Origin: a virus
Virus record (IMG/VR): IMGVR_UViG_3300023276_000718
Span: 1 to 27,555 of that record
Length of the DNA: 27,555 nt
Direction: 5' to 3' (one strand)
A model generated the notes under the pieces. That model worked only from the letters and a program-made list of their open reading frames with translations, was not told the DNA's origin and did not search any database. Positions within the stretch are counted from its first letter, which is position 1; each line of letters begins with the position of its first letter. Positions 4,307 through 25,381 of the stretch are shown piece by piece. Position numbers and translations under genes: made by a program.

Positions 4307-5248
4307 TTACAGGTTTGATCTTAATCTTGCAAATTTCTGTGAAACAGATTCTGCTACATATTCAAAAGATTCTGGTACTTTAGCCGAAAGTTTCTTTTTA
4401 GCATCAGCTTCCTTTTTCTTAAGTTCAGCAATATCTTCTTTACTGTCTTCTATTGCCTTTTGTAATTTTTGAACTTGTTCTTCGGAACCTCTACCTGTTT
4501 TTAAATCTCTTTTAGCTTGATCTAAATCTTTCGTTGCTTTAGCCATTGCAGTTCTTTCATCTTCTATAGATTTATTATAAGCCTTTATATCTGATTCTAT
4601 CTTTGCGTTAGCATCATCCTTCGGTGCTTCGGTTGTATCATCAGCCTTTGGTGCTTCGGTTGTATCATCTTTCTTTGGCTTTTCAGTCTTTGCTGGCGTA
4701 TCATCTTTCTTTGGCTTTTCAGTCTTTGCTGGTGTATCATCAGCTGATGTGAATTTAGGTTTATCTTCTGCTGCATCTTTTGATGTTTCAGATTCATAAT
4801 CAGCTAATGCCTTTTGCGCCTTTGTTGCCTTTGCTGCTAATTCCTTTTGTTTAACTTTTAATCTTTTAGATTCTTCACCATCTGCTGCTTTAAGTACAAT
4901 CTTATTTGCAGCCATAGATGATTTTACTTTAGCCAATGAAGAAACCTTTTTTAGACCCGGTGTAGTAGCAAGACTATCCATTCTCTGTGAAATGTTAGAT
5001 GCTGAATCTGCTAATGCTGCATTCTTAGCTTGATTTGCTTGATTCAATACTTCCTTTTGTCCTGCCGATAAATCACCTTTAGATTTTTCTTTCTTCTTAG
5101 CATAATCAACATTATTTAATGCCTGTGCCACTTTAGCCTTTTGAAGCTTCTTAGCATTATTTTTAATCTTTTTCCATTTAATTGGATTTTTGATTGCATC
5201 TATTAATGCCTCGTTTACAAATTGGTCATATGTTTTTAATTTACCCAT
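4307..5248 (-). CDS. Putative internal head protein with capsid-targeting sequence
   Basis: This 313-residue, highly charged Lys/Glu/Ala-rich protein starts MGKLKTYDQFVNEALI. The segment KTYDQFVNEA matches the capsid-targeting sequence of T4 internal proteins (KTYQEFIAEA) position by position. In T4 that peptide sends the protein into the prohead core and is cut by gp21 after the glutamate. The middle (about 165-210) is a low-complexity linker of DDTPAKTEKPKK and DDTTEAPK repeats. The rest is strongly helical and likely coiled coil (about 215-295), and YVAES near the C-terminus is another possible cleavage site. It lies directly downstream of the capsid gene and its terminator, with its own promoter-like box. 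A core protein (gp67/68-like) is the alternative to a packaged internal protein. Confidence 0.7.
   Translation of the reverse strand: MGKLKTYDQFVNEALIDAIKNPIKWKKIKNNAKKLQKAKVAQALNNVDYAKKKEKSKGDLSAGQKEVLNQANQAKNAALADSASNISQRMDSLATTPGLKKVSSLAKVKSSMAANKIVLKAADGEESKRLKVKQKELAAKATKAQKALADYESETSKDAAEDKPKFTSADDTPAKTEKPKKDDTPAKTEKPKKDDTTEAPKADDTTEAPKDDANAKIESDIKAYNKSIEDERTAMAKATKDLDQAKRDLKTGRGSEEQVQKLQKAIEDSKEDIAELKKKEADAKKKLSAKVPESFEYVAESVSQKFARLRSNL
4623..4741. repeat. Tandem repeats inside the internal head protein gene
   Basis: Two adjacent short tandem arrays lie here. A 20-base unit (ggtgcttcggttgtatcatc) occurs twice with a 27-base period (4623 and 4650). A 36-base unit occurs twice back to back (4670-4705 and 4706-4741) and differs at a single base (c at 4697, t at 4733). 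Both preserve the frame and encode the Pro/Lys/Thr/Asp-rich linker. The near-identity indicates recent slippage or duplication. Confidence 0.9.
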
Positions 5249-5347: not shown

Positions 5348-7168
5348 TTAGATAAGTGAACAACCAGTGAACGTGAAGTTCATTGTGTAATACATTAATT
5401 CAGGATTGAACCCAGCGTCTACTAAAGCGAATCTAGATTTAACCGCGATTTTAGGAGCCATAGTTCCTTCTGCGATTGTTTCTACTGATTCAGCCATTAA
5501 GTAAGGCATGAATACTAAACCAGGTGAGTTACCATCACCTTTTCTTCCTACAGCAACTGTGTAGTCATTAAAGGCTCTGTTTGGATCAACATAAATAGTT
5601 ACCCCAGCGATCGCACCGATTGGATATAAAGATCCACCAGCTTGATTAACTGTATTTGATAACGGATATGCAACGAATCCAGCAACTGATTGAAGAGCAG
5701 TAGCCATTTCTCCACCTGTTACAGCGAAAGTAGCTGGTCCTCTTCTACCTCTTGTAGCAATTAAGTTACTTGCAGCAAGAATCTTAGTATAGATTCTTCT
5801 CTGTAAAGTACCTTGTACATTACCACCACCAAGAACGTTAGTCTGTGCAGCACCAAGTCCGGCAGCATTGACGTTAACGTTTGTAGTGTTGTTAGGTCCT
5901 AATGCAATTACAGTAGTAGCAGCACCTGCTTGGTCAAACTGTTGAGATAACTGTGTACCACTTACAGCAGCAACTTGGCTGTTGTTAGTTACACCGTTTC
6001 TAAAGATTCTGTCCAAGATGTATTTATTGATAGATTGAGTTAACTCATTTACCAATACAGCCTCAACTTGAGCAACAGCATCAATTCCGAATTGCTTCAG
6101 ATCTTGAACTTGTTCTCTAGTTACAGCAGCAGCAACTTGGAAAGTTTCAGCAGCTACAGACTTGTTGAATAAGCTAAGTCCCATAACGTTATCAACAGTT
6201 GATTCACCTACACCTCTTTGGTAAGGCTCTAAACCATTAATATTATTAAAACCACCAACAGCAACCTGACCAGCAGGATCATTTGCAGGTTGGAAAGCAT
6301 TACCAGAAAAACCAGAAATATGATCTTCTAGAGCTTTTACTAAACTTAATCCAGATGGAGTTCCAAAAGTACCTAATGCATTACCTGCGGCTAAAACCAC
6401 GTTAAGCGGAGCAGCAGTACCAGAACCGTAAAAAGCACCACCGTCAACTATACAAGAGTATAATGGACTAGCAGCAGTTTCAGCACCTTGTGAAAAAGTA
6501 AAGCCAGTGTTATGAACAGCAGCAGTACCAACACCACCTAAAGCAGATGTGTTAGCTCTTACTCTGAATATTGGGAATCCGTCAATTCTTGAGTTTCCAA
6601 CAAAAGTTAATTCGTAAGATCCACCAGAAGTAGCAGAACCAAACCCAGCAGCACTATCAACGTAAATGATATCATCTACACCAAAAGTACCAGCCGCTAA
6701 AGTAGCGTTAGCTTTGATCATTAATGGAGCAGCAACAGTATCTAAAGCACCGTTTACTGGAGCTCCTGATCCTCTACCACCACCGTATACAAAGTCTAAG
6801 TAAGTTAATACTCCCATAGGGCCTTGCATTGGTACAACAGGTACTAGGTCTAAACCTACAGTCTGAGCCGCTACTTGCATTGCAAGTGGTAACAAAGAAA
6901 AAGGTCTGTCACCAGATCCAGTTGCTTGTGCTGGGAAAGCATTCATTGATCCAGGGTTTCCTGGCAATGTAACGTTACCCATACTTTGAACATTCATGTT
7001 CGGGTTAAGGTGTACAGTATTGTAAACACTCTCATTAAGGTTATGGTAATGGCAGTACTTAGACATCCAAGATAACTTAGACTTTTCAGTAATTCCAGTA
7101 CTTTCCTCAATAACAGGTCCCCAAGTCTTTTGAACCTCAGCCTCGTTGATTAATTGATTTGCGTACAT
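5348..7168 (-). CDS. 23: Major capsid protein (gp23-like)
   Basis: This 606-residue protein lies directly downstream of the prohead protease and portal, the T4 order 20-21-(22)-23. T4 gp23 has 521 residues. The C-terminal segment (LVFMPYLMAESVETIAEG, then KSRFALVDAGFNPELMYY) and the central part (TREQVQDLKQFGIDAVAQVE, then LVNELTQSINKYI) follow the gp23 pattern. The region of about 130-330 is Gly/Ala/Ser-rich, beta-like and longer than in T4, suggesting an enlarged insertion domain. LINEAE (6-11) and NLNES (43-47) fit the gp21 cleavage rule L/I-x-E, so the propeptide may end at Glu46. Base composition and codon use look less AT-biased than the neighbours, as expected for a very highly expressed gene. 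The gene is followed by a strong terminator. Confidence 0.92.
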   Translation of the reverse strand: MYANQLINEAEVQKTWGPVIEESTGITEKSKLSWMSKYCHYHNLNESVYNTVHLNPNMNVQSMGNVTLPGNPGSMNAFPAQATGSGDRPFSLLPLAMQVAAQTVGLDLVPVVPMQGPMGVLTYLDFVYGGGRGSGAPVNGALDTVAAPLMIKANATLAAGTFGVDDIIYVDSAAGFGSATSGGSYELTFVGNSRIDGFPIFRVRANTSALGGVGTAAVHNTGFTFSQGAETAASPLYSCIVDGGAFYGSGTAAPLNVVLAAGNALGTFGTPSGLSLVKALEDHISGFSGNAFQPANDPAGQVAVGGFNNINGLEPYQRGVGESTVDNVMGLSLFNKSVAAETFQVAAAVTREQVQDLKQFGIDAVAQVEAVLVNELTQSINKYILDRIFRNGVTNNSQVAAVSGTQLSQQFDQAGAATTVIALGPNNTTNVNVNAAGLGAAQTNVLGGGNVQGTLQRRIYTKILAASNLIATRGRRGPATFAVTGGEMATALQSVAGFVAYPLSNTVNQAGGSLYPIGAIAGVTIYVDPNRAFNDYTVAVGRKGDGNSPGLVFMPYLMAESVETIAEGTMAPKIAVKSRFALVDAGFNPELMYYTMNFTFTGCSLI

Positions 7169-7276: not shown

Positions 7277-8398
7277 TTATCTATTTAATCTGAATTTCAT
7301 TTTTTGAATTAAATCTGCTTGAAAGTTTTCATTTAATAATGGCTCTTTCTTTTTTTGAGCAGCCTCAGCAGCAGTTTTATTTTCATTTAGTGATTCTAAA
7401 TTCATTTGAGTATCTCTAAGATCTCTTGTTTGCCAAAAGTTATTAATAGCATAAGGAGTATTTAAAGAGTGGAATTTAGATTCAGAAATAATTTGTTCTT
7501 TTCTACTTTCAGAAAGAGAATTCCATTTATCAGAATATTTTGATGGCATATCATCAATAAAATTAATTACCTTTCTTTCTGTTATAAAACATGAATCCCA
7601 AACATTTTCAGCTTGTACAGTTGACATAATAGAATCGCTATTCATTGATTCAACTATTAAAACCTTCTTATCTTCAGATAAAGAATCAAATTCATTCTTT
7701 TTAGATTCTGATAAGAAATTCATAAAGTGCATTTCAGAAACATTCTTAGCTTCAGCCTTAGAAATTAAACTTTCTAATTTTTCACTAATAGTATCTTTGT
7801 AAGATTTCTTCTCTTCTTTAATTTCAACTGATTCATTAATAGTTTCTTCAATTACTGGATCAGATGATTCTTCATTAATTGATTCAGCATTCACAGCAGT
7901 TACATTTTCTGCAATGTATTCAGAATATTTAATACTCTTATCTACATTTTCTCCAAGATATTCAGAGTAAGCAATATTTTGATCAACCTTTTCAGCAACA
8001 TATTCAGAGTACTTAATTCCTTTATCTAGGCTTTCTCCTAAATAATTAGAATATGCAATTCCTTTATCTGCTTGCTCAGCAACATGCTCAGTATATTGAA
8101 TAGAACTATCTAGTTCTTCTCCTAAATAAGAAGCATAATTTTTAATTTTGTCAATGTTCTCTGCTAAGTAGTCAGAGTGAGATATGCTCTTGTCAAGATT
8201 TTCTGATAAGTATTCAGTATAATCAGTAACCTGATTTACTTTCTCTGCAATATGCTCAGTATATTTAACTAGCTTCTCGATTAACTCATCATTATTAGAG
8301 TTTGCAGATTCCTTAACACCATCCAATGTATTTTTAACATATTCAGTGTACTTATTAAAATCTTCAACGGTTACAAATTTGTCTGATGTATTTTCCAT
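7277..8398 (-). other. Possible nested in-frame scaffold product (internal start at Met198)
   Basis: The internal ATG at 8398 would give a 373-residue protein (MENTSDKFVT…) lacking the protease domain. The bases upstream on the minus strand (AAATAAATAAAACAAATAAA, then ACAGATCTAATA before the ATG) look like the A-rich leaders before true starts in this genome. Phage lambda C/Nu3 is the known precedent for a scaffold translated from inside a protease gene. This remains an inference. Confidence 0.35.
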
Positions 8399-8989
8399 TA
8401 TTAGATCTGTTTTATTTGTTTTATTTATTTCTTCTTCTGAACTATCTATTTCATAAATGTATAGACCTTCAGTATCTTTAAAGCCATAAGATTCATTTAC
8501 TCTTGCTAATTCTGCATTTTCAAATCCAGGATCAGCAACTAAATCATAAGTAAAGAACTTTTTAATTTTAACTTTACCAGATTCATCAACAGTACCAGCA
8601 GCTCTACTTGAAATATGCAATGGTATACCATCTTCTATTAACGCCTGAGCTTCTTTACCTTTTGAAGTATTTAATAATCTTATTCTTCCTAAAACTTGTT
8701 TCTTATCTTTATCGTAATCTAAATCCTCGATAACATGAGATACATTTGAAAGGCTAATGTCAAAATCCTTAGGGTGGTCTAATTCACCTAAAAGTTTATT
8801 AGTTTTAACTTTTTCCTTTAGTTCGTTAATATGAGGAAGTACTTCAGCTTCTTCATAAATTCTATTATTTTTATTCTTTACTCCAATCTCAGTAAATACA
8901 CCTTCAAGGACAACAGAGCCATCGGCGCCCTTTGTCATACTTAAATTAGACTTAGATCTTTCTAGAATTAAAAGTTTCTTATTTGACAT
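7277..8989 (-). CDS. 21: Prohead protease (gp21-like) fused to a repeat-rich scaffold-like domain
   Basis: Residues 1 to about 185 are a T4-type prohead protease: GVFTEIGVKNKNNRIYEEAE (30-49), LGELDHP at 68-74 with candidate catalytic His72, and HISSRAAG at 125-132 with candidate Ser128/Ser129. T4 gp21 is about 212 residues and ends there. Here the chain continues to 570. It runs through a linker (185-210), nine 14-residue repeats (243-368), an acidic segment, and an alpha-helical region with SLSEDKK/SLSESRK motifs. No separate gp22 scaffold gene lies between this gene and gp23, so the C-terminal part probably supplies the scaffold, as in protease-scaffold fusions of other phages. An internal ATG at 8398 (Met198) follows an A-rich leader-like stretch and may start a scaffold-only product. 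The start at 8989 follows a promoter-like box. Confidence 0.88.
   Translation of the reverse strand: MSNKKLLILERSKSNLSMTKGADGSVVLEGVFTEIGVKNKNNRIYEEAEVLPHINELKEKVKTNKLLGELDHPKDFDISLSNVSHVIEDLDYDKDKKQVLGRIRLLNTSKGKEAQALIEDGIPLHISSRAAGTVDESGKVKIKKFFTYDLVADPGFENAELARVNESYGFKDTEGLYIYEIDSSEEEINKTNKTDLIMENTSDKFVTVEDFNKYTEYVKNTLDGVKESANSNNDELIEKLVKYTEHIAEKVNQVTDYTEYLSENLDKSISHSDYLAENIDKIKNYASYLGEELDSSIQYTEHVAEQADKGIAYSNYLGESLDKGIKYSEYVAEKVDQNIAYSEYLGENVDKSIKYSEYIAENVTAVNAESINEESSDPVIEETINESVEIKEEKKSYKDTISEKLESLISKAEAKNVSEMHFMNFLSESKKNEFDSLSEDKKVLIVESMNSDSIMSTVQAENVWDSCFITERKVINFIDDMPSKYSDKWNSLSESRKEQIISESKFHSLNTPYAINNFWQTRDLRDTQMNLESLNENKTAAEAAQKKKEPLLNENFQADLIQKMKFRLNR
7886..8263 (-). repeat. Nine tandem 14-residue (42-base) coding repeats in the protease-scaffold gene
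   Basis: Residues 243-368 form nine units with the pattern Y-[ST]-x-[YH]-[LIV]-[AGS]-E-x-[LVA]-D-x-x-I-x, for example YTEYLSENLDKSIS, YSNYLGESLDKGIK, YSEYVAEKVDQNIA and YSEYLGENVDKSIK. A tenth, isolated copy starts at Tyr214. Two heptads per unit suit a helical rod. Each unit contains [LIV]-x-E, which is close to the gp21 cleavage rule. The repeats have diverged at the DNA level, so they are old rather than freshly amplified. Confidence 0.92.
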
Positions 8990-9033: not shown

Positions 9034-10680
9034 TTAGATTCCAGCTAATGGGTCTTCATCCATCCCATCAGATTTCTTCTCAGGTTTAAAATCTTTAGGG
9101 TTTGCACCTAATAAGATCTTTTCAATATCTTCCATTTTATATCCTTGGGCCTCTAACTCAGTACGTTCTTTAGCTCTAGCATTTGCTTTAATATCATCAC
9201 GAGTAAATCCACCGTACCTCTTAATTAAGAATCCTAAATCAAAATATGGTATTTCCTCCATTTCAGCAGTCATTGTACTTAGTTGAGTTTTCATATTACC
9301 AATAAAATCAACTCGTTTTGTTTGTAATTCCATTTCTTTCATTTCCTCAAAAACATTATCCTTCATAAAGTTTAATCCTAAACCTGCTTTAAATGCAATA
9401 TCATTTTTTAATTCTGGGTGATTAAGACACATTTGAAGATACATAGGCTTAACTAATATTTCTTGCCATATTGATCTTAATCTTGAAATAAATCTACCAA
9501 ATTTAATTTCATCTCTTAACATACCACTTGCTTCCATATCATATGTATTGCCACCTTCTCGGTCAAACCTAGAGAATGGGATTTTTGAAGCCATTTGTAA
9601 TTTATCAGAAAAATACTTTAAAGATTCAGTATCTCCTAAATCAGGACCATCTCCACCTATTGTTTGAATTTCTGGTGATTCACCGTCTTTAGAAGGTAAC
9701 CAATACTCTTTGTTAAACGGCATCATTGGTTTACCATTAGTTTGTATTTCTCCACTTTCAAAGTTAAAGTCTACAACCTCACGATATGAATTCATTAATG
9801 TTGCTAGAGATTGCTTTGCTCTTGTTTTAGATTTACCACCAACTGGTATTGTAAATTGTGTTTTAAATGAAGCATTAGATACAGCCCAGATAATTCTACT
9901 GTGTTCCATTATTCTTAAAAGGTTAAAAGATCTTATTAATCTTTCAACATAAGATATTCTCATTGGTGAATTAACAGATGAATATGAAATATAGATTATT
10001 TGTGAATCCCATAATGTTCTTTCTTTTGCACCCTGTCCTTTATATTGTATCCAAACTTTTTTACCATCATCGCTGTCAATACCTGGCATTAATGATATTG
10101 GATCTAATTCTTTAAATCCAATAATTTCAGTTTGTTTATCATTATAAACTATTTCAAATGCAAGAAAACCATCAATTAACCATTTCCTAAAATAATTCCA
10201 CGGTGATACCGAATCATTAAATCCAAAGTAATTATAGATATTATTATATACATCATTTATTTCCTCCTCTATTGATTCTCCGATATGTCCATTAAAATGT
10301 GCATATGCCATATAATTAGATTCATCAAATACAATAGCTTCATCTGTAAGTACATCTAAAATATCTTCTATCTCATCTTGTACTGCAAATGTTCTAAGCT
10401 GATCTCTTTTTCTATCATAATCCTGATCAAAGAATGCAATATTCTTTTTTAAGTTAGTATCCGTTAATGACAATGCAGCGAACGCCCCATACATATCATC
10501 ACTATCTGAACCCATAGGATTAAATGTATAACCCATTTGATTTTCAGTAAAACCTACTGCACGTGAATTACGAATGATCATATCATCATATGCCATCCCT
10601 AAATTAGAAAGATCTTTTAGAAGCCTTCTTACTGGATTTCCTGTACTTAAAGGACCTCTTCTATCTGTAAAACCTGCCAT
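9034..10680 (-). CDS. 20: Portal protein (gp20-like)
   Basis: This 548-residue protein (T4 gp20 has 524) would form the dodecameric portal vertex through which DNA enters the prohead. Family features are visible: an N-terminal helical region with DEIEDILDVLTDEAIV, a central FRKWLIDGFLAFEIVYNDK and GFKELDPISLMPGI, then the conserved IPFSRFDREGG and MLRDEIKFGRFISRLR segments that correspond to the stem/wing region of T4 gp20. The C-terminus is an acidic, lysine-rich tail (KPEKKSDGMDEDPLAGI). It lies directly upstream of the protease and capsid genes, as in T4. Confidence 0.93.
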   Translation of the reverse strand: MAGFTDRRGPLSTGNPVRRLLKDLSNLGMAYDDMIIRNSRAVGFTENQMGYTFNPMGSDSDDMYGAFAALSLTDTNLKKNIAFFDQDYDRKRDQLRTFAVQDEIEDILDVLTDEAIVFDESNYMAYAHFNGHIGESIEEEINDVYNNIYNYFGFNDSVSPWNYFRKWLIDGFLAFEIVYNDKQTEIIGFKELDPISLMPGIDSDDGKKVWIQYKGQGAKERTLWDSQIIYISYSSVNSPMRISYVERLIRSFNLLRIMEHSRIIWAVSNASFKTQFTIPVGGKSKTRAKQSLATLMNSYREVVDFNFESGEIQTNGKPMMPFNKEYWLPSKDGESPEIQTIGGDGPDLGDTESLKYFSDKLQMASKIPFSRFDREGGNTYDMEASGMLRDEIKFGRFISRLRSIWQEILVKPMYLQMCLNHPELKNDIAFKAGLGLNFMKDNVFEEMKEMELQTKRVDFIGNMKTQLSTMTAEMEEIPYFDLGFLIKRYGGFTRDDIKANARAKERTELEAQGYKMEDIEKILLGANPKDFKPEKKSDGMDEDPLAGI

Positions 10681-12220: not shown

Positions 12221-14104
12221 TTAAATCTTAACTTCTAAATCACCCTTAGGTAATATTATACTTTTTCCATTTTTAGGAACGATTATACTTAACATATCAT
12301 CATCGCCTAAGGAAGCATATTCTTCTGCATTAACTAAAACTTCTTGTCTTTTTTTAAGACCTTGCGTGCTTGACTTCATTGATGCTTCTACATAGCCATC
12401 ATTTAAATAGTCGTCTTTAGTTTTTTTTTCAGAAATATATGAATTTGCTAATTCTTTTTCTTTACCTTTTAATTCTTCTGCTAATAAATTTAAAGCTTCA
12501 GTTAATTCTTCAGTTTCACCTAACTTTTTAATAGCAGCTTCAACTTCAGATTTCTTTTCTTCTAAAAAGGAAATTGAATCAGTAAGATCTTTTCTTTTGT
12601 TTTCTTCGATTGCTTTTTTATTATCTTCAGCAATTAATCTTTCAGATAAAATCGGAGAAACATCAAAGTTAATAAATTCTTTAACTAATTCAACAGTTTC
12701 AGTAGCTGTATCAATTTTTGACATTTCATTTAATTGCATTCCAGGATTTACTTTATTAATATAAATTCCTTCACTTACACCAATCATAGTTAAAAATACA
12801 TCTAAGAATTCTGGATTCTGAATAGTTGTAAAGTTATCCATTTCAGCGATAAGATCAACTGATTCAAAGAACTTACAAATTTTATCATTTTGCCATTGAT
12901 TTCTATAACCTGAGAAGTTACTTGCCAATAAAGCTTCTTTTAATTCAATAATACTATAATTAGTCATATCAACTTTACCCATAGCTAAAGTACCTTCAGT
13001 AATATTGTATTCTAATGATTTATTATTTTCTCCATGTAATGAAAGAATGTTTCCATTTCTTGAGAACATTTTTAATCCTTCAGTAATATCAAAGAATCTT
13101 GGATCAGTTACATTAGCTTCAGTAATGTCAGTTCCATTATAAATATAATTCTTTCCATGTAAGTGGAATGTTAATCCTTCTTCAGATTCTAACACCGGAG
13201 AAAGAACAGATACAACTTTACCATTTGCAGTAGATGCAACCTTTTGATCTTCAGCATTCATTTCATTTACTATTTGCTTAGCATCCATTGACCACGGGTG
13301 CTTTGCAGCAACAACAGCAAATTTAGATTTTACGTCTGATTCATTTAATAAAGAAACTAAATCAGAATTAAATGATTCCATTAATTTTCCTTTTTGATTT
13401 TCTGTTCTCGCAATAGATTCACTAATTCTAAATTCCCATTTAGCGTTATTATATGATTCCATTATATACTCTCTTAATTCAGAGATTGGATTTAACCAAG
13501 TGTTTGCAGATAATTTAGAATATAAATTTCTTGCAATTTTAAACTTAAGGTCTGGGCTAACAGAATTTTCTAATTCTTCGCTAATAGCGGTTAAGTCAGC
13601 ATTTTTAAGTTTCATTGGAAATGCAGTTATTGCTTCTTCCAAAATAGTTAAAGATTCTTTAACAGAATACGAAACTCTGGAATTGTCATTATCCATTGCC
13701 TTCAATCCATTAATGCTATCCATAACGTTTTCGTACAGGTCTGTTAATGTAAATTTCATTTTGTTATGATTTTTTTGATTATTATTTTCAGTGTATATAT
13801 TTGATTGATCTTTTTGCATTTCATGATACCTAGTGATACCACTCATTGCCATCTGTTGTGGAATTCCCATTCCTACTAAGATTGCCATAACTTGTTGATC
13901 TGTCATAGATCCACTATGGTCAATTTTGCCACTACTGCCAACATCTGACATTTTACCACTTTGGCTAAACAATACATGAATTATATCCACTAATTGTTGC
14001 TTAGGGTTATTAAGATAAAGGGCATTTGTATTTACACCAGGTTGGGCATCAATTGCCCCATCTGCATAAACTTGTGTTTGTCCTTCGTTAACTGTGTTTT
14101 CCAT
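12221..14104 (-). CDS. Large putative prohead core/internal structural protein
   Basis: I do not recognise this 627-residue protein. Residues 1-110 are polar with no clear homology, and 116-290 are helical. The part at 310-375 carries three copies of an ITE site (ITE|A 327-330, ITE|G 340-343, ITE|G 368-371), and LTE|A occurs at 534-537. All fit the gp21 cleavage rule L/I-x-E followed by A/G (T4 gp23 is cut at LTE|A). Residues 495-560 are a likely coiled coil. With its own promoter-like box, a strong terminator, and a place among head genes, it is probably an abundant core or packaged head protein. An internal ATG at 13759 (Met116, MKFTLTDLYENV) follows an A-rich leader-like stretch and may be a second start or mark an old gene fusion. 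Confidence 0.6.
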   Translation of the reverse strand: MENTVNEGQTQVYADGAIDAQPGVNTNALYLNNPKQQLVDIIHVLFSQSGKMSDVGSSGKIDHSGSMTDQQVMAILVGMGIPQQMAMSGITRYHEMQKDQSNIYTENNNQKNHNKMKFTLTDLYENVMDSINGLKAMDNDNSRVSYSVKESLTILEEAITAFPMKLKNADLTAISEELENSVSPDLKFKIARNLYSKLSANTWLNPISELREYIMESYNNAKWEFRISESIARTENQKGKLMESFNSDLVSLLNESDVKSKFAVVAAKHPWSMDAKQIVNEMNAEDQKVASTANGKVVSVLSPVLESEEGLTFHLHGKNYIYNGTDITEANVTDPRFFDITEGLKMFSRNGNILSLHGENNKSLEYNITEGTLAMGKVDMTNYSIIELKEALLASNFSGYRNQWQNDKICKFFESVDLIAEMDNFTTIQNPEFLDVFLTMIGVSEGIYINKVNPGMQLNEMSKIDTATETVELVKEFINFDVSPILSERLIAEDNKKAIEENKRKDLTDSISFLEEKKSEVEAAIKKLGETEELTEALNLLAEELKGKEKELANSYISEKKTKDDYLNDGYVEASMKSSTQGLKKRQEVLVNAEEYASLGDDDMLSIIVPKNGKSIILPKGDLEVKI

Positions 14105-18447: not shown

Positions 18448-19734
18448 TTATCCTGATATATCATCAGTTTCTGTTAATCTCATATGTTCATAGTCAATAT
18501 CAAATTTACATCTTGAACCTTTACCTTGACCATCTCTAATTTTTAAAACCTTTAACCAATATTCTCGCTCTGCGTGCATTACAGAATCTTGGATTAATGC
18601 ATACATTACATCGGCAGTATGTGCTAGACCTGCTGATTCTGCAATGTTTTCCATTCTTACTTCGGTTGCATCCCATGCACCTCTATTAATTTGTGTTGCT
18701 GATATAACTAGCATATCTCTTTTAACGGCAAGTGCCCTAAGATCTTCAGCAATTTGTTTAATCTTCATATAGGTATTTTCAGTATTAGGATTTCTGTAAT
18801 TTGCAAGAATATTAATATAATCTACAACTAATACATTTACTTTATGATCTGTGTTTTCTTCTAAGTCTTTTAAGTAAGATTCAATATCCGGGATAGTTCC
18901 TTGTGAAGTTGGGTATTCCTTTACGAATAATTTACCTGGTGGTAATAATCCTCGAGACACCTTCTCTAATCTTCTTTTCATATAATCCCTATTACTTGCA
19001 TTTTTGTCATAATCCATCATAGGAACATTTAATAGATTTGATCCTATTCTTTTTAATACTTTTTGCGCTGACATCTCCGCTGTAATAAAAACTACATTAT
19101 GGCCCATCTTAACAAAGTTAGCTGCGTCGTTTGCTAACCATATTGATTTACCAATATTCTGTTCACCTGCATAAACAATTAATGATTTTGTATCATAGCC
19201 ACCGCCAGATACACGATCAACGAAACTCCAACCTGTTTCTATTTTCTTTGATGTTCTTTGGACATGAGATTCAGGATTAAAAAAATCTAAGCCTGTATCA
19301 GTATCAAAATTAATTGAACCATCCGTTGAGATCATTCCTATTGCACGCTGAACAACATCTTCTACATTTTCGGGGGATACATCTTGAGTTTTTACATATT
19401 CTATTGTTCTTACTAGTTGCTTATCAAAATGTTTCCATTTAACCCACGCCTCTCCTGTTCTTTTTAACCAATCTTGATCATACTCTTTAATGTTAATATC
19501 ATAAATAGATTTCACTATATCCTGTGATATTTCGTTAGGGTCATCCTTTACTAAAGCTGACATCTGTTGTTTAGAAGGGCTTTCTCCAAACTTTAAATAA
19601 AAATCCTTAGATAGTTTTGCAATCTGATCTAAATCTCTATTTGCAAAAAAGCCTTTACCTGTTCCTTTGAGGTAATGTGGCTTTGTTAAAAAATAGTTAA
19701 AGAAAATCTTTTCGTGATCTATGCTTGATTTCAT
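18448..19734 (-). CDS. 41: Replicative DNA helicase (gp41-like, DnaB family)
   Basis: This 428-residue protein (T4 gp41 is 475) is the hexameric 5'-3' helicase of the replisome. The RecA-like core has Walker A GEQNIGKS at 190-197, the segment VVFITAEMSAQKVLKRIGSN (214-233) typical of DnaB-type helicases, Walker B VLVVDYINIL at 301-310, and the sensor segment LVISATQINRGAW. ENIAESAGLAHTADV corresponds to the conserved region before the arginine finger. The N-terminal 150 residues form a shorter helical domain. The start is preceded by the AGCATATAAAAATAAA box, five bases before the ATG. A gp61 primase gene was not seen in this window. Confidence 0.95.
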   Translation of the reverse strand: MKSSIDHEKIFFNYFLTKPHYLKGTGKGFFANRDLDQIAKLSKDFYLKFGESPSKQQMSALVKDDPNEISQDIVKSIYDINIKEYDQDWLKRTGEAWVKWKHFDKQLVRTIEYVKTQDVSPENVEDVVQRAIGMISTDGSINFDTDTGLDFFNPESHVQRTSKKIETGWSFVDRVSGGGYDTKSLIVYAGEQNIGKSIWLANDAANFVKMGHNVVFITAEMSAQKVLKRIGSNLLNVPMMDYDKNASNRDYMKRRLEKVSRGLLPPGKLFVKEYPTSQGTIPDIESYLKDLEENTDHKVNVLVVDYINILANYRNPNTENTYMKIKQIAEDLRALAVKRDMLVISATQINRGAWDATEVRMENIAESAGLAHTADVMYALIQDSVMHAEREYWLKVLKIRDGQGKGSRCKFDIDYEHMRLTETDDISG

Positions 19735-19772: not shown

Positions 19773-20078
19773 TTATTGGTACGGGTTATGAATTACTTCA
19801 TATGTAGTATAAGCTGAATTTTGTAAAGATATTTCTAAAAGTTTATGTTTTACTAATTCTTCTATAAGAATATCACACTGTTCTTTAGATAGATTCCATC
19901 TCTTTGCCATTGAGACATCTGTAAACTTTATTTCTTTAGCAACCTTTCCACAGTAATCTCGTATTAATTCAAAAAGTATATCTTCAGCATCAGGGTAATG
20001 TGGCAGTGTTGTGTGATTTCCTAATACGTACTTTACTTTAAGTTTTGCAGTATTAAGAATTTTCGGTAACATCATCAA
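19773..20078 (-). CDS. Small winged-helix-like protein overlapping uvsX
   Basis: This protein of about 100 residues has a likely helix-turn-helix/winged-helix core: ILFELIRDYCGKVAKEIKF, then VSMAKRWNLSKEQCDILIEE, then LVKHKLLEISLQNSAYTTYE, in which the last part fits a beta wing. This is typical of DNA-binding regulators or replication accessory proteins. Three ATG codons in a row (20078, 20075, 20072) leave the exact start open. All lie inside the 3' end of uvsX, with a 20 to 26 base overlap in another frame, so translation is coupled to UvsX. Its position between uvsX and the helicase could suit a helicase-loading or transcription role, but it does not look like T4 gp59 and is much shorter. 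Confidence 0.75.
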   Translation of the reverse strand: MMMLPKILNTAKLKVKYVLGNHTTLPHYPDAEDILFELIRDYCGKVAKEIKFTDVSMAKRWNLSKEQCDILIEELVKHKLLEISLQNSAYTTYEVIHNPYQ

Positions 20079-21258
20079 TAGTTTCAGTAATTATATTTCC
20101 TAGTTCTTCTTGGTCTAACTCATCGCCGTATGTAAACTTTTCCGCAACAATAGGTTCTAGTAATTTTAGTACATCATCAGTTAATACTTGCGGTGTATAT
20201 AATTGATTAAGATCAACTGTATCATTTAAATGTTTTACACAAAGCTTACGAGCAGTTGCTGAAGGCTGAAAATAAACTGTTATATCTTTTTTATCTTTTT
20301 TAAACGAATGCTTTCTACAATCAGCCTTTCCTGGATCTGTTAATTTATTAAATTGACTTTCAGTAATAAACTTTCCTCTTTCGATACCACAAATATCCCA
20401 CCCAATATATTCCTCTAATCCTACATAAGGATTCATACCTTTATTAAAAGATATATGGAATTTAATGTTTGTTGGTTTTGCAAATCTATTCTTGTTTGGT
20501 TTAGCAGTAACAATAATTCCAGTTTGTTCTATACCTTCTTTTAATTTAGCTTTACCTAAAAATAGAATAATAGATGCAGCATACTCTGGCCCAGTACCAC
20601 CCCCACCAACTTGTCTTGAAAATAAATCTTGTGTTTGGTAAGTATGATTAGTAAATAAGAAAGGAATTTTACAAATACCAAATTGAGTCATAATAATTCT
20701 AAAGGTAGATTTTAAAAGTTTAGCTCTTGTCATATCAGCTTTACTACTCCCAGTCTTTGCATCATCAATTTCTTTTTGGGTTGCAAGATTACCGGCAGAA
20801 TCTAAGACTACCAGTATTTTAGGTAATTCAATTCCTTTTTTCTTTTGCTCAATTAATACATCAGTAATTGCAGTTACTGAGCTTCTGAATTCTTGGACAG
20901 TGTTACACGGCTCATATCTAAATGTTTTTGGATCAATACCAAACTTTTCAACCAATTTTTTATCTACTGCATTTTCTGAATCATAAAAAATTATACTATA
21001 CCCTTGTTTTTGCGCTTGTTTAATTGCATTTAAAATAAGATAAGTTTTACCAGTTCCTGACGGTCCTGCTAATGCAACTGCTCTATTATTAGGATAACCT
21101 CCAAATAAAGAACCTGTTAAGCAAGCATTTAAATGATAATTTCCAGTGGGTATATAATGATCAATTTCTGAAATTGTTGATTTGTCTAAAGTATTTCCAT
21201 ATTCGGATATCTTTGACATTTCTTTGTTTAAATCTGCGAATGAGAATTCCTTTGCCAT
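20053..21258 (-). CDS. uvsX: RecA-like recombinase UvsX
   Basis: This 401-residue strand-exchange protein (T4 UvsX is 391) pairs homologous DNA for repair and recombination-dependent replication. Walker A GPSGTGKT lies at 65-72, followed by YSIIFYDSENAVDKKLVEKF (the acidic YxDSE motif). Walker B is ILVVLDSAGNL, preceding the GSSKADMTRAKLLKS segment and FLFTNHTYQTQDLFSRQVGG, the DNA-binding loop region of RecA-type proteins. The C-terminus is acidic (DELDQEELGNIITETIDDVT), as in T4. The ATG at 21258 follows a TACATATAAAAATAAA box by 10 bases. Confidence 0.95.
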   Translation of the reverse strand: MAKEFSFADLNKEMSKISEYGNTLDKSTISEIDHYIPTGNYHLNACLTGSLFGGYPNNRAVALAGPSGTGKTYLILNAIKQAQKQGYSIIFYDSENAVDKKLVEKFGIDPKTFRYEPCNTVQEFRSSVTAITDVLIEQKKKGIELPKILVVLDSAGNLATQKEIDDAKTGSSKADMTRAKLLKSTFRIIMTQFGICKIPFLFTNHTYQTQDLFSRQVGGGGTGPEYAASIILFLGKAKLKEGIEQTGIIVTAKPNKNRFAKPTNIKFHISFNKGMNPYVGLEEYIGWDICGIERGKFITESQFNKLTDPGKADCRKHSFKKDKKDITVYFQPSATARKLCVKHLNDTVDLNQLYTPQVLTDDVLKLLEPIVAEKFTYGDELDQEELGNIITETIDDVTENS

Positions 21259-25141: not shown

Positions 25142-25381
25142 TTATGTTAATTCGCTAACTGTTGTTCCATAATCTTGGTTTATTAAGAGCTTATCATTAC
25201 CTTCAAAATATATCATTGTTTTTGTAGAATCATATAAACCTGTAATAGGATTATAGTATTCTGTAATGTATTGAATATAATCCTCTTGATACCTTGAATC
25301 AAATTCTACAAATTCAATAGCCTCTTGGCCATTCTTAGTTGTAGAAATAGGATTTAAGCCTGTTTTATTTCTATATGCCAT
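25142..25381 (-). CDS. Small unknown protein between clamp and polymerase genes
   Basis: This 79-residue ORF begins MAYRNKTGLNPIS and is rich in Tyr, Asp, Glu and Thr (YQEDYIQYITEYYNPITGLY). A short beta-rich end (TMIYFEGNDKLLINQDYG) follows. No polymerase motif and no known domain can be seen. It has a clear A-rich leader and promoter-like box, and its stop is one base from the polymerase start, so it is probably translated with the polymerase half. It could be an accessory subunit of the split enzyme or an unrelated small protein. Confidence 0.75.
   Translation of the reverse strand: MAYRNKTGLNPISTTKNGQEAIEFVEFDSRYQEDYIQYITEYYNPITGLYDSTKTMIYFEGNDKLLINQDYGTTVSELT

Follow-up and report, generated by a model that had tools for sequence, protein, structure and literature searches.

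Organization of the locus

The analysed stretch of DNA (the window, 27,555 nucleotides of the IMG/VR virus record IMGVR_UViG_3300023276_000718) contains the features listed in Table 1. One of its genes encodes a prohead protease of the T4 gp21 type, which is fused in frame to a scaffold in the position of T4 gp22. The match of the 570 aa product to the Peptidase_S77 profile reaches 54 bits at a cut-off of 27, and the match to phrog_207 (head maturation protease) extends beyond the protease domain. These matches, as well as the profile and fold matches to the solved T4 gp21 structure described below, bear out the initial interpretation of this DNA made without database searches (referred to here as the sequence-only reading), in which the product was described as a prohead protease fusion. 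The protease-scaffold fusion as such is already known from the annotation of related phages.

The portal gene lies upstream of the fusion gene, and the gene of the gp23-type major capsid protein (MCP) lies downstream of it. Compared with the T4 gene order, 20-67-68-21-22-23, a single gene replaces genes 21 and 22, and neither gene 67 nor gene 68 is present between the portal gene and the fusion. The scaffold part is placed like gp22, between the protease and the MCP, and is encoded in the same reading frame as the protease. A profile search with this part returned no Pfam scaffold match. In the predicted model, pLDDT values are mostly 65-84 over about residues 420-520 of its C-terminal region. 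A scaffold role of the C-terminal part of the fusion is very likely. In the MCP, a hydrophobic-x-E-[NS] site at about positions 42-46 is retained among relatives.

Two recurrent motifs accompany the genes of the window. The motif ATATATAAA recurs upstream of the structural genes 7277-8989, 9034-10680, and 12221-14104 and is possibly a late promoter, and the motif CATATAAAAATAAA recurs upstream of the replication genes 18448-19734, 20053-21258, and 25142-25381 and is possibly an early promoter.

Table 1. Features of the window discussed in this work (aa numbers refer to the respective protein product).
Feature	Position	Strand	Remarks
Prohead protease-scaffold fusion	7277..8989	-	570 aa; Peptidase_S77 E=2e-14; phrog_207 over residues 7-469
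Protease domain, T4 gp21 fold	8480..8989	-	Residues 1-170; invariant GELDHP (His72) and SSRAAG (Ser127/128)
I-L-E at residues 8-10, corresponding to the LIE at which T4 gp21 cleaves itself N-terminally	8960..8968	-	Present in 52/52 close relatives
V-N-E (164-166) followed by S, candidate self-cleavage site directly past the protease domain	8492..8500	-	Neither N165 nor E166 varies among 34 aligned relatives
Putative internal translation start: ATG of Met198 (8396-8398) and constrained stretch just upstream	8396..8437	-	Met in 86/86; lowest synonymous diversity
Scaffold part, gp22 position	7280..8398	-	Residues 198-570; between portal and MCP as T4 gp22; 26 [LIV]-x-E vs. 9.3 expected
Nine 14-residue repeat units	7886..8263	-	Residues 243-368; consensus Y-S-E-Y-[LIV]-A-E-N-[LV]-D-K-x-I-x
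Acidic variable linker (369-396) and helical C-terminal part (397-570)	7280..7885	-	Conserved [LIV]-x-E sites in the C-terminal part
Portal protein, gp20 family	9034..10680	-	Portal_T4 E=1.9e-72
Major capsid protein, gp23 family, with N-terminal propeptide	5348..7168	-	Gp23 E=7e-29; predicted cut after L-N-E46
Putative internal (cargo) protein	4307..5248	-	CTS-like N-terminus MGKLKTYDQFVNEA, C-terminal ESFEYVAESVSQKFARLR; just after the capsid gene

Protease domain and its predicted self-cleavage sites

The protease domain belongs to the Peptidase_S77 / T4 gp21 family by its profile, its fold, and its His/Ser motifs. A search of PDB profiles identified the solved T4 gp21 (5jbl_A, E=3.9e-5), and the predicted fold matches 5jbl_B with a Z score of 17.1 and an rmsd of 2.1 A over 137 residues, the next matches being herpesvirus proteases with Z of about 7. 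The alignment columns of His72 and Ser127/128 are invariant among the aligned relatives.

Two likely self-cleavage sites, ILE10 and VNE166, are both conserved. In T4 gp21, the LIE corresponding to the former stands at residues 7-9, and N-terminal self-cleavage of gp21 has been described (PMC9958956). In PTm1, PAU, and Lak, the latter site likewise takes the form [LIV]-[NSM]-E-[SA], and in clade L290 it reads Y-E-S. Since the C-terminal processing of gp21-type proteases is on record (PMC9026906, PMC5694885), VNE166|S is probably a self-cleavage site of this protease as well.

The repeat array and its relatives

The nine tandem 14-residue units were reproduced at exactly the coordinates given in the sequence-only reading. 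The motif proposed there, Y-x-x-[YH]-[LIV]-[AGS]-E, applies except for position 1, where unit 3 has H (HSDYLAE) and eight of the nine units have Y; the corrected motif is [YH]-x-x-[YH]-[LIV]-[AGS]-E. Position 4 (Y or H), position 5 (L, I, or V), and position 7 (E) follow it in all nine units. The equation of one repeat with one turn was mistaken, 14 residues corresponding to approximately four helical turns. In two AlphaFold runs, the array was modelled as a nearly continuous helix at pLDDT of only about 30-55, and the consensus plotted on a helical wheel is amphipathic. The predicted model thus supports a helix in the array and no particular assembly of such helices. Matches of the long-helix fold to NONO/SFPQ and Mce1 were weak, concerned common helical arrangements, and were set aside.

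At the DNA level, TRF detects the array only in part (period 42, 4 copies, 71% matches, 7901-8069), which argues for a protein repeat kept by selection. The array is not a chance product, because 52 distinct close relatives retain each of the nine units. A recent expansion of a DNA repeat was considered and rejected, as the array found by TRF is weak and partial and the units are conserved individually across the relatives. Clade L290 is an exception to this picture: its units are nearly identical, as if recently homogenised. In L291:2038-4014, the repeat region and the C-terminal domain are encoded in two separate ORFs; this split may be natural, or it may stem from a misassembly or frameshift error in an array of nearly identical units.

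A scan of IMG/VR detected 235 relatives; the best 80 of them were retained, and scans started from distant homologues added other clades and a fifth one. Among the relatives found are the genomes of five different huge phages, 462-735 kb in size. The array is frequent among viral contigs from the environment, and of 50,697 phage records only uncultured ones matched. For phages with a similar capsid gene cluster, hosts from Bacteroidota have been predicted (PMC9723584), and the phage represented by the window may share this host range.

The number of units is nearly fixed within clades. Nearly every close relative in the clade of the window has nine units, L053 has ten, the L096 group has about nine, and the other clades have 10-14. 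The [LIV]-x-E core, which the sequence-only reading expected to be conserved, is present in all 468 units of the 52 distinct close proteins and in about 96-99% of units in most clades (E7 is retained in 99% of units in the L091 clade and in 96% in the L083 clade), but this falls to 74% in the L081 clade. There, 26% of units are devoid of E, with units 1, 4, and 9 E-less in several members, yet Y/H is kept at position 1 in 97%, [YHF] at position 4 in about 86%, and [LIV] at position 5 in 100% of units. The loss of E from units that keep their aromatic and hydrophobic positions indicates that the repeat unit is first of all structural and that its glutamate is dispensable in some copies.

Our search of the open-access literature revealed no description of such an array, which does not prove its absence, and no earlier description of the repeat family or of its spread onto small proteins. 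The sequence-only reading took an array of cleavage sites fused to the protease to be undescribed; a scaffold loaded with sites (T4 gp22) and the fusion (in annotations) are both known.

A putative internal start of the free scaffold

A feature overlooked in the sequence-only reading is a conserved Met directly before the scaffold. It is present in all 86 automatically parsed distinct relatives, which represent five clades, although the linker at this place varies in length and sequence; 36 more loci fall outside the automatic parsing, and those inspected show Met before the scaffold too. Position -3 relative to this codon is occupied by A in 79 of the 86 sequences and by G in the other 7; at other internal Met codons, A stands there in 35 of 92 cases. 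In Flavobacterium johnsoniae, initiation is favoured by A at -3 (PMC6847099). Among 52 relatives, synonymous diversity is lower in the codons just upstream of Met198 (9-codon ratio 0.17) than anywhere else in the gene, and in the clade of the window the 11-codon ratio near Met198 is 0.26 (permutation P=0.008). In the L091 and L096 clades, the synonymous minimum lies elsewhere and not at the scaffold Met, and a start-context model built from the genes of the window lends no support to this start, ranking Met198 54th of 170 internal ATGs.

A plain fusion yields protease and scaffold at a ratio of 1:1. In T4, about 580 copies of gp22 accompany 55-100 copies of gp21 (PMC9958956, PMC5694885), which is far from this ratio, and therefore a plain fusion could not supply it. 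Synthesis of a free scaffold from Met198 by internal initiation, similarly to the lambda C/Nu3 pair, is in our view fairly probable. In this way, a single gene might supply protease and scaffold in unequal amounts.

Likeness of the repeat unit to the capsid-targeting sequence

The sequence-only reading also pointed to the likeness of the repeats to the T4 capsid-targeting sequence (CTS). Our alignment supports this: the resemblance is real at the level of sequence. A DNA pattern recovered T4 ipII and ipIII as MKTYQEFIAEA. According to suppressor analysis in T4, targeting depends mainly on CTS residues 4 and 7, and processing on residues 8 and 10 (PMC9026906). These four residues (Y4, F7, I8, and E10) correspond in the alignment to positions 1, 4, 5, and 7 of the repeat, where its conservation is highest, and the repeat thus carries the residues required of a CTS, with Y/H in place of F at position 4. 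When the 8,508 heptads of the proteins encoded in the window were ranked by similarity to T4 YQEFIAE, the nine repeat heptads took ranks 1-6, 12, 17, and 22; being mutually related, they count as one observation and not nine. There is a consistent difference between the two codes: position 4 is mostly F in CTSs and Y/H in the repeats, and position 6 is often N in the former and mostly A/G/S in the latter. A T4 CTS is an N-terminal propeptide, and the array lies inside the scaffold.

N-terminal placement of the CTS type was found here only in the candidate internal protein and in short arrays on separate proteins. The N-terminal motif of the candidate internal protein (4307-5248) is KTYDQFVNE, and in relatives it is KTYSEFVNE or KSYNEFIAE. 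This protein has no relative among the 50,697 phage records, and profile searches detected none. In the huge phages, a CTS-type motif occurs close to the N-terminus (aa 3-6) of several proteins, such as MEFVKTYLEFINEQ and MKNIKTYEDFVNEE. The candidate internal protein ends with FEYVAES-VSQKFARLR, and the end of the scaffold is similar (LNEN-FQADLIQKMKFRL), so that a shared C-terminal processing or shell-binding peptide is possible. Short DNA repeats of 27 and 36 bp (87-97% matches) at window positions 4612-4741 code for a K/P/D/T-rich segment of the same protein.

A search for the repeat in whole phage records revealed mini-arrays of two to four units in small separate proteins (L254, L256, L257, L258, L259) of four large relatives. 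They are represented by a 65-aa protein (MNTISYQEYVMEALNAQIDYSEYIAKELDKSISYTEYL...) of a 508-kb phage (L254), whose neighbours have CTS-like N-termini; an 83-aa ORF with four units and the probable start MNYEDYIAES; a 207-aa protein that has three units close to its C-terminus; a 76-aa protein that carries two units at its N-terminus and a hydrophobic helix at its C-terminus; and one of 62 aa (MIKSYSNYNDYIAER...). The units are mostly N-terminal. In the 735-kb phage, one mini-array protein and its one-unit neighbour both end in a hydrophobic helix. The same search found no mini-arrays in the records of T4, PTm1, Lak, pT24, PAU, and P-HM2, and a search for relatives of the 76-aa membrane-type protein gave none. 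The movement of units onto other proteins, mostly to their N-termini, is the strongest evidence in this analysis that the unit may be a docking module.

Predicted cleavage at [LIV]-x-E sites

The scaffold part is strongly enriched in [LIV]-x-E, and so is the MCP propeptide (5 vs. 1.2 expected), in contrast to the mature MCP (3 vs. 3.0 expected) and the portal protein (4 vs. 7.5 expected), as expected for substrates of the protease. T4 gp22 contains 20 such motifs vs. about 10 expected, and enrichment is seen also in the scaffolds of PTm1, pT24, and P-HM2; a scaffold loaded with sites is thus a general feature of T4-type phages. Within the repeats, a control for direction fails: the reversed motif, E-x-[LIV], occurs 14 times and [LIV]-x-E nine times, and therefore the enrichment there is inseparable from the pattern of an amphipathic helix. 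At the MCP sites of the L091 clade, N follows E, as in many repeats, which makes cleavage of the array chemically plausible; the P1' residue, considered earlier as an argument against cleavage in the repeats, was dropped for this reason. On balance, a cut at the repeat glutamates is plausible, with the chances about evenly divided. Another protein of the window (12221-14104, 627 aa, of unknown family) starts with MENTVNEG and has 31 [LIV]-x-E vs. 20 reversed motifs; it is probably a further substrate of the protease, either a core protein or an ejected one.

Proposed model of core assembly and alternative explanations

The explanation that in our opinion fits these observations best would involve two products of the fusion gene, a core packed of helices, a CTS equivalent to a single repeat unit, and proteolytic clearing of the head; as a whole, we consider it an even bet. 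The gene would probably give a few copies of the full fusion and many copies of the free scaffold starting at Met198. The nine units would form a long amphipathic helix, and the scaffold molecules would pack through the aromatic and hydrophobic positions 1, 4, 5, 9, and 13 to build the core. The CTS of an internal protein would be a single unit of the repeat code, and the cargo would join the core by the same helix packing. During maturation, the protease would cut itself at ILE10 and VNE166 and the shell propeptide at LNE46. It would also cut the scaffold behind a large number of [LIV]-x-E motifs, with repeat position 7 probably among them, and thereby free the cargo and clear the head.

In T4, core targeting is ascribed to the affinity of the CTS for the core, with no structural basis given (PMC9026906). 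A scaffold made of tandem CTS-like units suggests a concrete basis for it, namely that like binds like. Docking by such like-with-like helix packing may be the mechanism, at chances that we put somewhat under even. A broader and more tentative proposal, which we would not call probable, is that the T4-type CTS is a part taken over from the scaffold. The same helical unit, packing homotypically in core and cargo, would then be used once in the CTS, two to four times in the mini-arrays (one of which has a membrane-type helix), and 9-14 times in the scaffold; the glutamate at its end would let the linked protease dissolve the assembly. For the phiKZ-type giant phages, no counterpart of gp22 had been confirmed as of 2017 (PMC5694885); the fusion provides a candidate scaffold for huge phages.

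The alternative that survives best, doubtful but to be taken seriously, is that the array is a plain structural repeat, a helical scaffold rod, and that its likeness to the CTS arose by convergence, both being short amphipathic helices with many [LIV]-x-E that share one protease environment, with the cargo docking elsewhere. It agrees with the amphipathic wheel of the consensus, the persistence of hydrophobic positions in units that dispense with E, the excess of E-x-[LIV] over [LIV]-x-E in the repeats, and the differences between CTS and repeat at positions 4 and 6. However, the match at all four mutation-defined CTS positions and the top ranks among the 8,508 heptads speak against it, and a pure rod has no need for units at the N-termini of small separate proteins.

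It is improbable that the repeats and the CTS are alike as preferred cleavage sites, that is, as a substrate code read by the protease in the form of an extended P7-P1 motif. The requirement for CTS residues 8 and 10 in T4 processing (PMC9026906) and the P1' N common to the repeats and the MCP sites of the L091 clade are in line with such a code, but the other likely sites, VNE166 and MCP LNE46, lack the aromatics Y1 and Y4, residues 4 and 7 of the T4 CTS serve targeting rather than processing, and the E-less units keep their aromatics. A role of the unit number as a length gauge for the core, and hence for capsid size, is compatible with the explanation based on helix packing but quite unlikely: copy number is nearly fixed in clades (nine in almost all close relatives) and reaches 10-14 in clades of 508-735 kb phages, but no genome in the nine-unit clade is complete (largest contig 181,663 bp).

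Comparison with known systems

The Sphingomonas phage PAU encodes a protease of the gp21 type, in which the same motifs occur, and also a set of internal proteins that are CTS-like, but its protease (gp151) and scaffold (gp152) are separate and the repeat array is absent. The MCP of PAU is processed by about 65 residues (PMC5646251). A 429-kb phage (L255) contains a second, diverged protease-like ORF of 135 aa (G012:C1:417574-417867), which has GELYNP instead of GELDHP and, judging by this change, looks inactive; it recalls the diverged protease paralogue of phage SPN3US (PMC5694885).

The proteins of Tenacibaculum phages PTm1 and pT24 annotated as 'prohead core scaffolding protein and protease' are likewise fusions of the gp21 type, with a scaffold rich in [LIV]-x-E and the same gene position, but they do not contain the 14-residue YxxY array. 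The scaffold of PTm1 (L087:6073-7767) has a different repeat of longer period (LSEGIEKWI...), with [LI]-[ST]-E at recurring places.

In phage lambda, the scaffold Nu3 is nested in the gene of the C protease and is produced in free form from an internal start. Protease and scaffold share one reading frame there, as in the phage of the window, in which the internal start is only predicted. The C protease is of the S49 family and the domain described here is of Peptidase_S77, and therefore the lambda system is analogous to this one, which is not a member of the same group.

T4 itself is another close parallel. Its gp21 and gp22 have in common with the product described here the protease fold and active-site motifs, the portal-protease-scaffold-MCP order, and a scaffold loaded with [LI]-x-E, but they are encoded by separate genes, whereas the phage of the window has one fused gene, no genes 67 and 68, and a regular 14-residue repeat in its scaffold. 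The CTS of T4 IPII and IPIII shares with the repeat the heptad Y-x-x-aromatic-[ILV]-x-E as well as the targeting and processing positions. In T4, it is present as one N-terminal copy on the cargo, whereas in the group of phages represented by the window, with Y/H for F, it is found in 9-14 internal tandem copies on the scaffold.
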